The position numbers and the translations under genes were made by a program. Below the pieces are notes generated by a model that was not told the DNA's origin, did not search any database, and saw only the letters and a program-made list of their open reading frames with translations. From the IMG/VR virus record IMGVR_UViG_3300042868_008063, positions 1-36,780 of that record: 36,780 bases of DNA. One strand, given 5' to 3'. Position 1 is the first letter of the stretch, and each line of letters begins with the position of its first letter. Positions 1-36,780 of the stretch are shown here, piece after piece. This DNA comes from a virus.

Positions 1-135
1 ACACAAATCCTGCCTGTAATCTCGCGCTATCTCATCTGTAGGCAAGAGCGCGAGACAAGTCACCATCCGCTCGGGAACCCGCCATCGGCCAAGCGCTCCC
101 GAACCACCTCAAAGGCGTCGTGATACAGCCGGCCG
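1..135. repeat. Left copy of contig-end direct repeat
   Basis: Bases 1-135 recur at 36646-36780. They match except at base 127 (A here, C at 36772). The repeat contains the 3' end of the glycosyltransferase gene and the spacer in front of the first lysis gene, so joining the ends restores a continuous gene order. This is what a circular or circularly permuted assembly gives; a short physical terminal repeat is the alternative. Confidence 0.95.
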
Positions 136-1166
136 ACCCGCTCCATTGCATAGAGTCTTCGCGCCCGCTTTGCAATCGCCGGCCGGTCCAGCGCGAGCAC
201 CCGATCCACCGCCGCCGTAAACTGGGTCACCGTCTGACACCGGAACCCGGTAATGCCGTGTTGCACCGTCTCCGCAAACGCCCCAAAGTCGCTCGTAATC
301 GCCGGCGTGCCGCATAACTGCGCCTCAACCACCGACCCGCAAAACGGCTCCACATAGCGGCTCGGTGCGATAATCGCCCGCGCTGCACCCAAAACGGCCG
401 CCCGCTCCGATCCCATCGATCCAAGGATCTCCACGTTATCCGGCACGTCCCAGGCGTACGCATTCCCCTGCCCCATAATTTGAAACCGCACATCGGGCCG
501 CCGACGCGCCACCTCAAATACGGTGGCGATCCCTTTCCCTTCCGTCAACCGGCCCATATACACAACCGGCGCCGACGATCGATCGCCCACCGTGCTCGGC
601 CATTCGTTTGCCGCGTAGTAATTTGGCACGACAAACTCGAGCCGTGCCGACTCCATTGAGACGCCGTGCCGGCCCTCGCGCCCCATCGCCGCATGCCGTG
701 CTGCGTAGCTTTCCCAGATCCGCCAGGGCAACAACGTCTCGTAATACCCGATACCGCTTTCGATCGCACCCGCGCCGGCCGACAACACCGGCAGCCCCCG
801 CACCGCCGCCGCGTGCGCATGCCCGAACGGAAGCAAGATCAGGTCGCCGGGCACAACGCGCTCTTGCAACTCCGTCCGTGCGTAGAGATTCCATTGCCGA
901 TACAGCGCCGACCCGTCCACCGCGTCCGCGCCGTACAGCTCATGATGCTGGTACGGATGCCCTAGCAGGTCCGCGTGTTCGTCCTGATCCATCAGCACCA
1001 CGTCCTCGGTCGCGCCGGTTACCGACCCGTCCACCCCGTAGTGAAGTACCTCCCACCCATACGGCCGCATCATCGGCGCAAACCGACGCACCTTTTGCGT
1101 AAATGCGCAATGCGACCAGTCAGGATGTGTAACGGTATGTGGGATGCCCAACACATGTAAACGCAT
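60..1166 (-). CDS. GT4-family (GT-B fold) glycosyltransferase
   Basis: A 368-aa glycosyltransferase with the GT4 signature: a GRLTEGKG nucleotide-sugar loop at residues 205-212 and the EX7E motif (E273...E281, EPFCGSVVE) followed by a TSDFGAFAE segment. Family members move a sugar from an activated donor to an acceptor; the acceptor cannot be read here. The start has a GAGG element 8 bases upstream. The gene lies 18 bases downstream of the 1475-aa tail-tip gene and, across the contig join, 81 bases before the lysis cassette, so it is expressed with late genes. That placement suggests it decorates a virion protein or host surface glycan. The family call is firm; the substrate is inference. Confidence 0.88.
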   Translation of the reverse strand: MRLHVLGIPHTVTHPDWSHCAFTQKVRRFAPMMRPYGWEVLHYGVDGSVTGATEDVVLMDQDEHADLLGHPYQHHELYGADAVDGSALYRQWNLYARTELQERVVPGDLILLPFGHAHAAAVRGLPVLSAGAGAIESGIGYYETLLPWRIWESYAARHAAMGREGRHGVSMESARLEFVVPNYYAANEWPSTVGDRSSAPVVYMGRLTEGKGIATVFEVARRRPDVRFQIMGQGNAYAWDVPDNVEILGSMGSERAAVLGAARAIIAPSRYVEPFCGSVVEAQLCGTPAITSDFGAFAETVQHGITGFRCQTVTQFTAAVDRVLALDRPAIAKRARRLYAMERVGRLYHDAFEVVRERLADGGFPSGW

Positions 1167-23424: not shown

Positions 23425-24681
23425 CTACACCACGAACGGCGTTGATGGCTTGAGCATAAGCGCCGACAGCCCCCAGACCAGTGCGTCTACGCGGTCGGGC
23501 GACTGGCCCGCGGCGTCTGGGTTAAATTGCAACATCTGCGCCTCGAGCGCTGGAAACGGCCCCACGTGAAACACGCGGCCTTCCTGATACATACTATAGA
23601 TAGGCTCGGCCCGTGCCAGCTTACCACGGCTCGCCCGCACGTCCACAATACGTACCCCGTGCGCCCGATCGCCGAGCGACTTAATAACGGCCGTGACCAT
23701 ATCGCCGCCTTGATTAGTCTCGGCCACGATCGCCGCCGAGTACTTCCGCGCTGCCGTCAGCGCCACCGATGCCCAGTCGTTTGGGGAATATCGGCCCGAC
23801 AGATCCTCAAGCACGTAGCCGCGCTTTTCCTTGTCGACCGCGCAGACGATAATGCCCGTTTCGTCGCTGGTCGCCTTGGCCGTCACCGCCGGGTCAATCG
23901 CCACCACCACCCGATGCCACGCGGTCGCCCCCACGGCCAGCCGAGCACGGTCAATATCGGCTCGCGTCCAAAGCAGCCCGCCCGTGTCCGTGCCCCACTC
24001 GCCCAAGAATATGCGCCGATACCGCTCCGGCGCCGTCTGCTCGGTCTGTTGAGCCCGGTCGATGAAAGACTGGGAGAGGTTCACGCGGTTGTCGTGCCAC
24101 GTCGTGTGGACGTACAGCGTGTCCGGCCGACGGGTCTCAACAAACATACGATGTAGAAAATGCTCGGTACTGGCCGGATTTAGCACAAGGATGACGCGGT
24201 TTGGAAGATGCTTGTGCCGGATGCTCAGGTCGATCGTCTCGAAGGTCCGCTCGTCCACCAGCTCTTCGGCTTCGTCCAGCACCCACGTCGTGACGCCTTG
24301 AATGGACTTAAGCTTGGCCGTCTGGTTGCCGCTCGACGTCTGAATGCCACGAAACAGGATCCGGCTGCCCGTCTTGCGGTTGACGATCTCGCGCTTTGTT
24401 ATTTCAAAGTCGTCCGTGACCCCGAGCCGGTCCATTTTTTCCCGAAACTCTGGGATAATCGACACGTCCGCCGCGACCATCGTAAAGCGCGTGAACAGGA
24501 TCACGTGCCCCGGCTCGTACGTCAGATTGAGCAGCGCGAGTGCCACGTGAAACGATTTGCCCGAGCCGCGGCCGCCGGTGATGAACGCATACCGCCACGC
24601 CGGCCGCGACGTAAACAGCGGCCGATACTGGCGCAGCAGCGTGACCGACTCCGCGCCGGTCACGGCCTCCGGCTCCGTCAT
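23425..24681 (-). CDS. Terminase large subunit (Terminase_3-like)
   Basis: A 418-aa packaging motor. Walker A is GGRGSGKS at residues 36-43 and Walker B with the catalytic Glu is WVLDEAEE at 133-140. The C-terminal nuclease shows VVVAIDPAVT (D263), AIVAETNQGG (E321) and DRVDALVWG (acidic pair near 396-399), the three acidic sites of the RNase H-fold nuclease. Length and order match PBSX/Terminase_3-type enzymes. The start overlaps the small-terminase stop by ATGA. It cuts concatemeric DNA and drives packaging with the small subunit. Confidence 0.95.
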   Translation of the reverse strand: MTEPEAVTGAESVTLLRQYRPLFTSRPAWRYAFITGGRGSGKSFHVALALLNLTYEPGHVILFTRFTMVAADVSIIPEFREKMDRLGVTDDFEITKREIVNRKTGSRILFRGIQTSSGNQTAKLKSIQGVTTWVLDEAEELVDERTFETIDLSIRHKHLPNRVILVLNPASTEHFLHRMFVETRRPDTLYVHTTWHDNRVNLSQSFIDRAQQTEQTAPERYRRIFLGEWGTDTGGLLWTRADIDRARLAVGATAWHRVVVAIDPAVTAKATSDETGIIVCAVDKEKRGYVLEDLSGRYSPNDWASVALTAARKYSAAIVAETNQGGDMVTAVIKSLGDRAHGVRIVDVRASRGKLARAEPIYSMYQEGRVFHVGPFPALEAQMLQFNPDAAGQSPDRVDALVWGLSALMLKPSTPFVV

Positions 24682-24986
24682 CCCGTGTCGTCAGTCCACG
24701 CGATCGGCGGCACCACGCGGATCGGCTCACCGCCTGACGTAATGTCCGCGACCTGCACCGACTTGCCGAACGCCCGATCTAGCAGCACCTCGGCCGCCCG
24801 GATGTCGCCGCGGATCGCCTTTGCCCGCAACGCTTTAAGCGTCGCTTCAAGCGCGGTCATCCCGTTTTGCTCATCGGCCAGCACCTTCGCCAACACCTCG
24901 CGCAGATCCGGCAGCTTCGGGCGCCCCTTCGGGTTGCCGGTTTGCCCCTTCTTCCACGCCGGCCGCAAGTTCTGTGGGTTTGCCAT
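24678..24986 (-). CDS. Terminase small subunit candidate (DUF5681-like)
   Basis: A 102-aa protein opening with WKKGQTGNPKGRPKLPDL, the DUF5681 hallmark, then helices (LREVLAKVLADEQ, ALEATLKALRAKAIRGDIRAAEVLLDRAFGK). Proteins with this opening are regularly encoded immediately before large terminases in Pseudomonadota phages and are treated as DNA-recognition subunits. Its stop overlaps the large-subunit start by ATGA. DNA-binding was not directly shown; the basic N-terminus and alpha-helical body fit. Confidence 0.8.
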   Translation of the reverse strand: MANPQNLRPAWKKGQTGNPKGRPKLPDLREVLAKVLADEQNGMTALEATLKALRAKAIRGDIRAAEVLLDRAFGKSVQVADITSGGEPIRVVPPIAWTDDTG

Positions 24987-25855
24987 TATTGCGCTACCTC
25001 GGTGAACTTTCGGTGTTTCTCATCCACGATCTTTGGCACCGCGTACCGCCACAGCACCAAGTGATGTAACCGCCTGTTCTTGTTGCCCATCGTCGCAATT
25101 TTAACGCAAGATGGCGCCATCATGATGGTATAAAACGACTTAACGTACGTTCCGTTCTGATGGTAAAAGTCAGACATCCCGCCGGCATTGCTTTGCGTCA
25201 GCTTTTGCACAATCGCCACGGCGTTAGTCGTCAGCAGTAACACGCCCCGAGCGCCTTGCGAGACGTACGTATTAACGTCCTCGTTAATCCGGCCCACAAA
25301 CGCAAACGGCCGATCTGCGCGACAGAAAAACGTGTTCATTGCTTTTCTAGTCAGCGTCATGCCGGCCGCATACTGACTTTGTGACCCTCCGATAAAGTCA
25401 CCCCCCTGCGCCATACAGACCGTTACGGCTGGGGTTTGCCTGTGAAAGTTCACCATCGCCGCAAACACAAGATCGAGCGATCGTATTTGCGCGTATTTGT
25501 AGTTGCCTTCTCGATCAAATCGGTACTGAAACTGTGTGTAATCGTCATCCAGCATCACATACGTGTCGATTTGCCGCTCTTTTGCCAACGCAGCCACCGC
25601 ATTCCGAGCAAACACCACCGCGCCAAGCTGCTGATGAAACGTGTCGGCAAGGTCAAACGTCGCCGCGACCGCCGCTTTGTTAAACACCAACACCGCGTCG
25701 CCGTACTTCCGGCAATACTCAGCCAGGGTCGGGTCGCCGTCGTCCACGACAAAAAACACACGCCCTGTGTATCCCGAATTACGCAAATGCGTATAGGTGT
25801 ACACCCGATCCGGACGTTTATTGGTCAGGATAAATGCGGCAAATGTTTCAGACAT
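24986..25855 (-). CDS. TET-associated-type (TAGT) glycosyltransferase
   Basis: A 289-aa protein that matches the TAGT family layout: AAFILTNKRPDRVYTYTHLRNSGYTG at the start, FFVVDDGDPTLAEYCRKYGDAV, ARNAVAALA, then the donor-binding YVMLDDDYTQFQYR (DDD at residues 103-105), a GGDFIGGS loop and GRINEDVNTYV near 188-198. Members are linked to glucosylation of modified pyrimidines in phages and fungi and are related to the GREB1 domain. I start at ATG 25855; GTG 25909 and ATG 25864 are alternatives. The stop overlaps the small-terminase start (TAATG). No TET/JBP dioxygenase was found. Family call by pattern memory, not by search. Confidence 0.75.
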   Translation of the reverse strand: MSETFAAFILTNKRPDRVYTYTHLRNSGYTGRVFFVVDDGDPTLAEYCRKYGDAVLVFNKAAVAATFDLADTFHQQLGAVVFARNAVAALAKERQIDTYVMLDDDYTQFQYRFDREGNYKYAQIRSLDLVFAAMVNFHRQTPAVTVCMAQGGDFIGGSQSQYAAGMTLTRKAMNTFFCRADRPFAFVGRINEDVNTYVSQGARGVLLLTTNAVAIVQKLTQSNAGGMSDFYHQNGTYVKSFYTIMMAPSCVKIATMGNKNRRLHHLVLWRYAVPKIVDEKHRKFTEVAQ

Positions 25856-25909
25856 CGGCCCCATTATCGCCGTATTTGATTTCAACTTGCCGATTGGTAG
25901 CCGCTGCAC

Positions 25910-29267: not shown

Positions 29268-29574
29268 GTGTCACCTCCCTTGCTTTTCGGCGTAGCATCG
29301 GCGCGCATCCTAAGCACAACAGGACCACATCGTCCGCCAGGTCCACCATCTCGCGCACTTTAGAAACGGCGCCGCACAGGTCGCACGTCTCGCCGTCGGT
29401 GCAGGCGGTATCCATGCGTCGGAAATAGGTCTCGTACATCCTTGTTGTTTCGTGCGCGACCCGTGCCGCTTCGCGCTGCTCCGCTTCGCGCAATATGCGC
29501 CAAGTGCGCCAGTACAGCACCGCCGCCGCCGACACCAGCAGCATTAACGCAAGCACCCGCTCGAGCGGAGTCAT
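29260..29574 (-). CDS. Membrane-anchored protein with cysteine pairs
   Basis: A 104-aa protein. Residues 1-25 (MTPLERVLALMLLVSAAAVLYWRT) are a transmembrane helix. A charged helix follows, then CDLC...CLGC pairs (about residues 63-90) that may bind zinc. Start and stop overlap neighbours (ATGA with the helicase; 8 bases with the next gene). It is related by its N-terminus to the 33-aa microprotein encoded at 28235-28336. The function is unknown. Confidence 0.6.
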   Translation of the reverse strand: MTPLERVLALMLLVSAAAVLYWRTWRILREAEQREAARVAHETTRMYETYFRRMDTACTDGETCDLCGAVSKVREMVDLADDVVLLCLGCAPMLRRKAREVTHD

Positions 29575-31844
29575 GCGGCGGTCACCCCGAATAGGTCACT
29601 TTGCGACGTTGCTTCTTTTAGGTTGCGGCACGCGTGCGCCCAATACGATGGCTTAAGTTCAGCGCCGATAAATCGCCGACCCATCTTGAGCGCACAGACA
29701 CCTTCCGACCCGATCCCCGTAAACGGCGATGCCACCAAGTCGCCGGGGTTGCTCCACAACTGGATGGCGCGCTCAATCACGTCGAGCTGCAACGGGCACA
29801 AATGCTTCTCGTCCTTGCTGTCTCGTGCCTGGCGCACGTTAAGCGTCCGCGTCTGGTCAATGTCAAACCATACCGGAGACGCGACCTTTTGCCAAAGATC
29901 CAGCGAGAAGTCCGCCGGCGTATGGGTCACTGGCGTTTGTTCAGCCGGCCCCCATTTGCGGAACACCACAAGATAGTCAGGCATCCCGACCCTCGAGAAC
30001 GTCGCGTTATTCTGAATCGTTTTGTACAGCAACCCGTGCGCCTTGGTGCGCTGCATCTCGGTCACAGGATCCTTCCAGATCGTGACCTCGGAGTGATACG
30101 TCCATCCTGCGGCTTCGGCGGCACGAATCACGTCGCCGCGAAAGTCGCGCAACCCACTGACGCCGTGCTTCCACTTAAAGGACGGCAGCTGCGACACGTG
30201 AACCGCCATCAGCCGGCCAGTCATCGTCGTCCGGTGCAGTTCGGGAAGCAGATAGCCGAAGTGCCGGAAGAAGTCATCATCGTCGGAAACGTTGCCCATA
30301 TCACGCGGGTCGTCGCTGTACGTATACAGATTCGCAAACGGCGGCGAGTAGACCGAGAAGCCGATGGACTCGGACGGCAATGCCCGCCACACGGCCACGC
30401 AGTCGTCGTTGTGGAGTGTCCATCGGTCGCCCGTGCCCACAACGCCTAGGCCGCCTTCCGCAAGCATCGGCACCACGTCTGACTCGCCCTGCTCTTGCTT
30501 CATTGAGGATACCATACGGCGTTGCATCTCCTGATGTTGTGTTTCTTTCTGGATAAGAGCATCGCGGACAGCTCCCTCTGATTCAGCGGCCACGAGATAG
30601 GCAATGACTTCCCGCGTCTGTCCAAACCGATAGGACCGACGAAGCGCCTGATACAGCATTTCATACGAGTAAGACAACCCTGCAAAAATCATTCTGGCGC
30701 AATGTTGCCAATTCATGCCGAACCCGGCGATGGACGGCTTGGTAAGCAGCACGCGGATACGTCCTTCCGAAAAGTCGAGAAGTCGCCGTTCCTTCTCTTC
30801 CGGCGTGTGATCGCCGCGCACTTCAACTACATCAGGCATCAGTGCCCGCACGGCTTCGGCTTCGTACGTCGTGTGAACCCAGATTACCCACGACTCGCCC
30901 GGCTCCGCGTTTACGATGCGCGCCACGGCGGCGGCACGATCCGCCGCCGTCAGACGCAGTTCTCGATGCAGCCCTGTCGCGGACAGCGACTGGCCGGCGA
31001 ACAGCTCGCCCGTGTCCAACTGGCGGGCCATGTGATCGACGCCCACAATCTCGTGGCGGACGGAGAGCGGCGGCAGCACGTAGCGGGCGCCGTCGTACGG
31101 CGTGCCGTTTGGCCGCCTCAGATCTGCCGGCGTGCGGATCGCCACGCTCCACGACGCGCACCACGACCAGAAGGCAGTTTCCGCGTGCTTCTTGAGCCGC
31201 CACGTGCCCGTATCGCTTAGATCGTTAATAAAGAATCGCGCCAGCATGTCCGTCATATTCATGGCGCCGACAAACTCGGCATGGTTGCCCAGTTCATCAA
31301 AATCGTTGGGGCTTGGCGTGGCGGTGCAGGCCAGCTTCCACCGATGCTGCCGGAACGTGTCGATGATCCGGATGCGCGTCTTGCCCATCATGTTTTTTAA
31401 AATGCTAGACTCATCGAGCACGACGCCCACGAACTGAGACGGGTCGAGATGGTCCATGCGGTCGTAATTGCACACGACCACACGGGATGCGTCGTCGGCG
31501 CCCGTGCCGGTCATATCGCGGATTACGCGAGCCGTCACGCCGATGCGAGCGGCTTCGCGCACTGTCTGCGCAGCCACGGCCAACGGCGCCAGAATCAGCA
31601 CCTGTTCGCCCGTAATGCGAGCCACGGCATCGGCCCATGCCACCTGCATAGCCGTTTTACCGAGCCCTGTGTCAGCAAACAGCGCAGCCGTGCCGCGGCG
31701 CAGCGCCCATCGCACAAGGTGCGATTGCCAGTCAAACAACGAAAATGGCAGCGCTACCGCGTCGGCCGCCGATGCCGATAACCCTTGAGGAGACTGTGCC
31801 AATCGCTTGCTGGCGACATACTCAAAATAGTTAGGACTGGTCAT
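29571..31844 (-). CDS. Superfamily II helicase fused to N4-type DNA methyltransferase
   Basis: A 757-aa fusion. Residues ~35-440 are an SNF2/SF2 helicase: Walker A ADTGLGKT (57-64), DESS (144-147), TATPSPND (174-181) and the motif VI-like QALRRSYRFGQ (399-409). Residues ~475-757 are a beta-class amino-methyltransferase: SPPF (500-503) comes first and SPFTGIGSEG (706-715) near the end, the circularly permuted order. SPPF rather than DPPY favours N4-cytosine methylation. AGGA lies 5 bases before ATG 31844, so I reject the longer start at 31862. It may couple replication or unwinding to methylation that evades host restriction. Confidence 0.9.
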   Translation of the reverse strand: MTSPNYFEYVASKRLAQSPQGLSASAADAVALPFSLFDWQSHLVRWALRRGTAALFADTGLGKTAMQVAWADAVARITGEQVLILAPLAVAAQTVREAARIGVTARVIRDMTGTGADDASRVVVCNYDRMDHLDPSQFVGVVLDESSILKNMMGKTRIRIIDTFRQHRWKLACTATPSPNDFDELGNHAEFVGAMNMTDMLARFFINDLSDTGTWRLKKHAETAFWSWCASWSVAIRTPADLRRPNGTPYDGARYVLPPLSVRHEIVGVDHMARQLDTGELFAGQSLSATGLHRELRLTAADRAAAVARIVNAEPGESWVIWVHTTYEAEAVRALMPDVVEVRGDHTPEEKERRLLDFSEGRIRVLLTKPSIAGFGMNWQHCARMIFAGLSYSYEMLYQALRRSYRFGQTREVIAYLVAAESEGAVRDALIQKETQHQEMQRRMVSSMKQEQGESDVVPMLAEGGLGVVGTGDRWTLHNDDCVAVWRALPSESIGFSVYSPPFANLYTYSDDPRDMGNVSDDDDFFRHFGYLLPELHRTTMTGRLMAVHVSQLPSFKWKHGVSGLRDFRGDVIRAAEAAGWTYHSEVTIWKDPVTEMQRTKAHGLLYKTIQNNATFSRVGMPDYLVVFRKWGPAEQTPVTHTPADFSLDLWQKVASPVWFDIDQTRTLNVRQARDSKDEKHLCPLQLDVIERAIQLWSNPGDLVASPFTGIGSEGVCALKMGRRFIGAELKPSYWAHACRNLKEATSQSDLFGVTAA

Positions 31845-32004
31845 AAATTTCCTCTCGAGCATGCGACTTCCGCATCGTGATTATGCTTTTCAACAAAGCG
31901 CGTCGATATTGTGCGACGCTTTGAAAGGTGGCCGCATACTTATCGTTAACAATCAGCGCATAAATCAGGCGCAACTCGCGGATCGGGTCCGTAGTGCTAT
32001 TCAT
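31831..32004 (-). CDS. 57-aa helical protein before the helicase
   Basis: A 57-codon gene beginning MNSTTDPIRELRLIYALIV, with YAATFQSVAQYRRALLKSIITM and a basic end. Its ATG overlaps the upstream stop by ATGA (32001-32004), and its own stop overlaps the helicase start by 14 bases. The frame fills the otherwise empty stretch between the two genes, which supports it. No family is known. Confidence 0.65.
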   Translation of the reverse strand: MNSTTDPIRELRLIYALIVNDKYAATFQSVAQYRRALLKSIITMRKSHAREEIYDQS

Positions 32005-36645: not shown

Positions 36646-36780
36646 ACACAAATCCTGCCTGTAATCTCGCGCTATCTCATCTGTAGGCAAGAGCGCGAGA
36701 CAAGTCACCATCCGCTCGGGAACCCGCCATCGGCCAAGCGCTCCCGAACCACCTCAAAGGCGTCGTGATACCGCCGGCCG
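36646..36780. repeat. Right copy of contig-end direct repeat
   Basis: Second copy of bases 1-135. Positions 36705-36780 carry the last codons of the glycosyltransferase on the minus strand. The single difference (36772 C against 127 A) changes residue 347 of that enzyme from Leu (CTG) to Arg (CGG). It may be a true variant or an error at the end of an assembly. Confidence 0.95.

Follow-up and report, generated by a model that had tools for sequence, protein, structure and literature searches.

An apparently orphaned TAGT-family glycosyltransferase beside phage terminase genes and the ParB-linked cassette of its relatives

The TAGT family of glycosyltransferases, reportedly first described in a 2013 NAR paper, is named after its association with TET/JBP enzymes, which is a naming feature and no catalytic requirement. 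A gene of this type lies directly ahead of the terminase genes in a viral stretch of 36,780 nucleotides (IMG/VR record IMGVR_UViG_3300042868_008063, positions 1 to 36,780), which we refer to as the window, and the original prediction for this gene saw no TET/JBP or other base-modifying partner. The locus raises the question of what a TAGT without such a partner works with and what it acts upon. The window carries a 135-nt direct terminal repeat (positions 1-135 and 36646-36780, 134/135 identical) and is probably a complete genome, so that the absence of TET/JBP and hydroxymethylase genes is meaningful.

Family, predicted fold, and setting of the window gene

In the profile search that had been proposed as a check, the open reading frame, whose 289 codons are intact from the ATG at 25855 on the minus strand, matched the Pfam TAGT family PF20691 with an E value of 4.9e-37 and 128.3 bits, above the curated cut-off of 27.5 bits, and a PHROG search matched it to phrog_842 (E=6.8e-66). 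The structure prediction proposed alongside gave a confident AlphaFold2 model (pLDDT 88.7, pTM 0.87), whose nearest solved folds in Foldseek are of the GT-A type, among them GnT-I and GalNAc-T, with GnT-I (1fo8) as the top match in the PDB (E=2e-5); no solved homologue was found by sequence. As listed in Table 1, three motifs stand out. In an alignment of 54 relatives, D104 and D105 of DDD are invariant and D103 is nearly so, G152, D153, and G156 of GGDFIGG are invariant, and in NEDVN, N191 and D193 are invariant and E192 and V194 nearly invariant. Thus, the protein has a predicted GT-A fold with a DxD-type motif and is, judging from the profile match and the alignment, a genuine TAGT-family glycosyltransferase, as had been proposed from the same motifs. 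Sequence family, predicted fold, and catalytic motifs are common to it and to the rest of PF20691, which includes GREB1-type domains.

Table 1. Features of the TAGT locus in the window
Feature	Position	Strand	Basis
Terminase large subunit (TerL)	23425..24681	-	PF04466 E=2.3e-30, PF17289 E=3.1e-14
DUF5681 protein, terminase-small-like by position	24678..24986	-	PF18932 E=4.6e-15
TAGT-family GT-A glycosyltransferase (predicted fold), 289 aa	24986..25855	-	Pfam PF20691, phrog_842, AlphaFold2, Foldseek
NEDVN, residues 191-195	25271..25285	-	Alignment of 54 sequences
GGDFIGG, residues 151-157	25385..25405	-	Alignment of 54 sequences
DDD, residues 103-105, GT-A DxD-type metal/NDP-sugar motif	25541..25549	-	Alignment of 54 sequences
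Putative 3' remnant of ParB-YYAH gene, 8 codons	25848..25871	-	GDNGADV* vs LDHGANV* (L008 ParB end)
Putative 5' remnant of ParB-YYAH gene, 12 codons	25874..25909	-	VQRLPIGKLKSN vs L008 VQRLPIGTLKPN
XRE-like HTH gene, upstream of slot, shared with L008	25910..26155	-	HTH_3, PHROG, collinearity with L008

The position assigned earlier to the gene, between an XRE regulator and the terminase genes, was confirmed. The HTH gene matched HTH_3 with an E value of 6.7e-4, short of the Pfam cut-off, and PHROG regulators with values down to 3.4e-6; on the other side, the DUF5681 gene and then TerL follow TAGT directly. The proposed link to packaging likewise stands, as terminase genes follow TAGT both in the window and in its relatives. 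A cell-surface glycosyltransferase moron was considered and rejected, since neither the model nor the neighborhood hints at one and the genes linked to TAGT are ParB and terminase.

The window itself contains no partner of the TET type, in agreement with the original prediction: Pfam scans of its 30 main proteins matched no TET/JBP, C5-methylase, or thymidylate-synthase family and no family of a first hmC glucosyltransferase, and PF00303 (thymidylate synthase) matched nowhere in the record. Beyond the window, 50 viral contigs bearing the gene cassette described below included no thymidylate synthase (0/50) and three with a C5-methylase match (3/50), and one of six annotated phage records with homologues encodes a thymidylate synthase (Vibrio phage pv27). 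Tet_JBP was matched in 0/50 of the same contigs, 0/6 of the annotated records, and 0/37 bacterial genomes carrying TAGT prophages, negatives that depend on the profile and are weaker than the others, as it matched no intended positive control (14 named genomes plus 396 from a single phylum). Both Tet_JBP and thymidylate synthase are absent from the complete genomes NTR1, jlb1, HHTV-2, and c5. The earlier suggestion that the host makes the acceptor thus gains no support from the 37 TAGT-prophage hosts, within the limits of a profile lacking a positive control.

That TAGTs need not pair with TET is shown by phage T6, whose TAGT is believed to attach another glucose to hmC that is already glucosylated (PMC13390438). 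The T6-type beta-glucosyl-HMC-alpha-glucosyltransferase, which is the label of phrog_842, belongs to the TAGT fold family and is viral, like the window gene. However, the T6 acceptor, glucosyl-hmC, is made by other phage enzymes (PMC13390438), whereas those genes are all absent from the window phage, which has neither a dCMP hydroxymethylase (thymidylate-synthase family) nor a first hmC glucosyltransferase. A tblastn search with the window TAGT (1e-5) found no T-even phages.

A ParB-linked domain accompanies viral TAGT genes

Homologues found by tblastn in annotated phages revealed a repeated order, in which a ParB gene overlaps the start of TAGT and terminase genes follow. E. coli phages, Nocardia NTR1, and the two Lactobacillus viruses jlb1 and c5 all show this order, as does the archaeal virus HHTV-2, although there TAGT is separated from the terminase by several small genes; three of these cassette carriers, HHTV-2, jlb1, and c5, are culturable viruses. 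Aligning the ParB proteins showed conservation to be highest over the C-terminal ~110 aa, higher than in the ParB domain itself, and we named this C-terminal domain YYAH after a conserved motif; R62, H63, Y75, E87, and D95 are among its conserved residues. YYAH is usually fused to ParB_N and is a stand-alone gene in pv27, which has YYAH and TAGT, and at three further loci (L020, L021, and L029). It forms a small helical bundle in the AlphaFold2 model, for which a fold search against the PDB returned nothing significant, and it matched no family in Pfam.

In IMG/VR, at least 585 contig stretches encode relatives. In a sample of the relatives nearest to the window gene, which favors its branch and includes some near-duplicate contigs, profiles built here placed YYAH adjacent to, or one or more genes away from, 105/106 viral TAGT ORFs for which upstream DNA was available. 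In bacterial genomes the same was true of 46/46 TAGT ORFs, spread over 41 loci (Clostridia, Bacteroidales, Enterobacteria, Verrucomicrobia, Spirochaetes, Kiritimatiellae, and others). Conversely, an independent scan found TAGT within 1.5 kb downstream of 73/80 YYAH copies, most of the remaining copies lying at contig ends or having TAGT upstream or at a greater distance. Among these relatives, YYAH is missing only from the window and from L036, in which TAGT is 5'-truncated; divergent TAGTs without it occur at L046, L068, and L085. Judged by gene neighborhood, the near-constant partner of TAGT in these viruses is the ParB-linked YYAH gene, not a TET enzyme. The TET/JBP partner that gave PF20691 its name was found neither in the window phage nor in the 50 cassette contigs, where the companion is ParB_N/YYAH, and, unlike TET-linked TAGTs, those of the cassette usually stand before terminase genes. 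The original picture of a TAGT without a partner was thus right as to TET/JBP but missed the companion, the ParB-linked YYAH gene, which appears to be deleted here. We know of no acceptor-making enzyme for the ParB-YYAH-TAGT cassette. A literature search found no paper that links ParB with TAGT or Mom or that discusses ynaK, although an earlier mention of ParB beside TAGT may exist. A family named after TET would be recast as one whose near-constant partner in these viruses is a previously undescribed ParB-linked helical domain.

The cassette also occurs in E. coli, where it sits beside trkG, in the Rac-prophage neighborhood. With a minimum cassette coverage of 80%, we found it in 887/5,426 complete E. 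coli genomes (about 16%), with ynaK-YYAH-TAGT intact; the ynaK gene in the Rac prophage of K-12 represents the ParB part (ParB_N) of the same cassette in truncated form. Only this truncated ynaK is left in C600, a K-12 strain (L317 3501-4104), whereas in AMR2684 ynaK is broken past the ParB part and the next frame, which covers YYAH, is open and annotated as a "transcriptional regulator." Some of the E. coli TAGT homologues are labeled "GREB1-related protein" in RefSeq.

In some cassettes, further genes occur between or beside YYAH and TAGT. They encode radical SAM enzymes, methyltransferases, CofD together with an NTP transferase, a cytidylyltransferase, or another TAGT, and they are consistent with a supply of activated sugar or further decoration. 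Radical SAM, or CofD plus NTP transferase, lies between YYAH and TAGT in L198 (4375-5319), L228 (4356-5315), L220 (2845-5279), and L256 (3083-5471). A second TAGT arrangement is seen in L085 (3099-5355), where two TAGT genes in tandem come after a ParB_N gene and YYAH is missing.

Deletion of the partner gene and exchange at the slot

Neither YYAH nor ParB_N was matched anywhere in the window, and no YYAH gene overlaps its TAGT from directly upstream. L008, which has an intact cassette, is collinear with the window across 5.4 kb (76-81% at the nucleotide level), and 697 nt of it (L008 1351-2047) are absent between window positions 25890 and 25868. On either side, short stretches resemble the two ends of the L008 gene (Table 1): 10/12 residues of the 5' stretch match, and it is now in frame with TAGT, while the 3' stretch overlaps the TAGT start. 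By this comparison, a deletion of about 0.7 kb evidently removed ParB-YYAH and left both gene ends, making the window TAGT a derived, partner-less representative of the cassette. The window TAGT keeps 65/67 columns conserved at 90% or more, and both deviations are common to intact L008. Between the two phages, pN is 0.11 and pS 0.72 for TAGT; this pS is far higher than that of DUF5681, TerL, and VRR (0.34-0.46), the HTH gene being at 0.55, and the G+C content of the window TAGT is 52.8% versus 61.7% for the genome. The pS excess and the lower G+C content point to a probable exchange of the cassette between lineages, with purifying selection acting on it; this selection may predate the deletion.

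The deletion could be an artefact of assembly, with the actual phage having ParB-YYAH, as the record is a metagenomic contig and its junction was found in no other viral contig; nonetheless, the ATG used in L008 is absent from the window, the stop of the HTH gene differs, and the contig closes with a terminal repeat, which together make an artefact improbable. A more serious possibility, though still one we think less probable than its opposite, is that TAGT became a non-functional leftover once ParB-YYAH was deleted. The rarity of relatives without YYAH, of which L036 is the only other one, points this way, as do the ynaK stub that is all the K-12 Rac prophage retains and the empty slot of some close relatives, which indicates that the phage can do without TAGT. 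Yet all 289 codons are intact, and the conserved columns are retained to the extent given above, with no deviation private to the window.

The slot ahead of the terminase genes was compared among sister phages, defined as phages sharing the window's terminase, with TerL mostly 59-82% identical. It is empty in L038, L039, and L041, the closest TerL relatives (94% TerL identity), and holds ParB-YYAH with TAGT in L008, L058, and L059. Elsewhere it contains ParB with a divergent TAGT (L046 and L068), a ParB-N6/N4 methyltransferase fusion (L047, L061, and L071), ParB with Mom (PF25680; L053, L054, and L060), or ParB with PAPS reductase/DUF3440 (L064, L065, and L067). In the Mom-bearing phages, the ParB_N gene is directly followed by the Mom-family gene (L053 1236-2371, L054 2016-3223, and L060 469-1676), and in those with PAPS reductase/DUF3440, a short ORF separates it from ParB_N (L064 2826-4851, also L065 and L067).

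Candidate target and role of the cassette

Both Mom and the N6/N4 methyltransferases belong to families whose substrates are DNA bases. Because the slot that holds the TAGT cassette also holds ParB-methyltransferase, ParB with Mom, and ParB with PAPS reductase, DNA is the likeliest target of TAGT; this exchange is our main argument, and on it the original view of DNA as the likely target continues to stand. CmoX, a DNA C5-carboxymethyltransferase, is likewise accompanied by ParBc proteins (PMC12783734). In the methyltransferase fusions, the Mom pairs, and the CmoX systems (PMC12783734) alike, ParB stands beside a DNA-modifying enzyme, as it would in the TAGT cassette, and the first two occupy the same slot in sister phages; the TAGT cassette differs in that its enzyme is a glycosyltransferase and its ParB protein has the additional YYAH.

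We therefore favor, with a probability of roughly 0.6, the reading that the window TAGT belongs, as its glycosyltransferase, to a widespread cassette for TET-independent, packaging-linked DNA glycosylation (ParB_N+YYAH, TAGT, terminase) and is orphaned here. In such a cassette, ParB_N and YYAH, as one protein, or YYAH alone, would be followed by TAGT and then the terminase genes. Late in infection, the YYAH protein would bind TAGT and, with the ParB domain, bring it to the viral DNA. TAGT would then take a sugar from a nucleotide-sugar donor and attach it to a base of this DNA, either during packaging or shortly beforehand, as the gene position suggests, and the sugar would shield the viral DNA from restriction. 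The orphan in the window phage may work alone, use a partner in trans, or be about to decay. Only tentatively do we consider that YYAH and TAGT together make up a new kind of DNA-modifying enzyme, one able to link a sugar to a base with no hydroxymethylation beforehand, in which case YYAH may prepare the acceptor or TAGT may act on unmodified or methylated bases.

Other targets fit the data less well. Protein glycosylation has been proposed for GREB1, the eukaryotic relative, and a protein substrate (terminase, capsid, or a host factor) would suit the place of TAGT directly upstream of the terminase genes, the RefSeq naming of the E. coli homologues, and the GnT-I and GalNAc-T folds nearest to the model; we regard it as unlikely, given the exchange with DNA methyltransferases and Mom and the ParB domain that is nearly always alongside. 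At least as unlikely is classical TAGT activity on a 5-hydroxymethylpyrimidine, with hydroxylation supplied by the host or an unseen phage enzyme. The family name, the second glucose of T6 (PMC13390438), and the thymidylate-synthase-family protein of pv27 speak for it, but the searches of the 50 cassette contigs and 37 hosts, the four complete genomes with neither enzyme, and YYAH as the invariant companion speak against it.

If YYAH and TAGT do form such a new enzyme, tailed bacterial and archaeal viruses would carry glycosylated DNA of an unrecognized class, and at the packaging locus this modification would be interchangeable with those made by Mom and by N6/N4 methylation. More broadly, the swapping of TAGT with Mom and DNA methyltransferases at a packaging-linked slot suggests a general ParB-guided marking of DNA before packaging.

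Other genes of these phages deserve brief mention. A small gene that looks methyltransferase-like by eye lies between DUF5681 and TerL in L045 (5358-5999), L050 (5385-5999), and L054 (4533-5147), and is absent in the window. The window encodes a GT4-type glycosyltransferase unrelated to TAGT after the tail genes (60-1166, minus strand; Glycos_transf_1, E=4e-19), as well as a 763-aa helicase fused to an N6_N4 DNA methyltransferase (29571-31862, minus strand).
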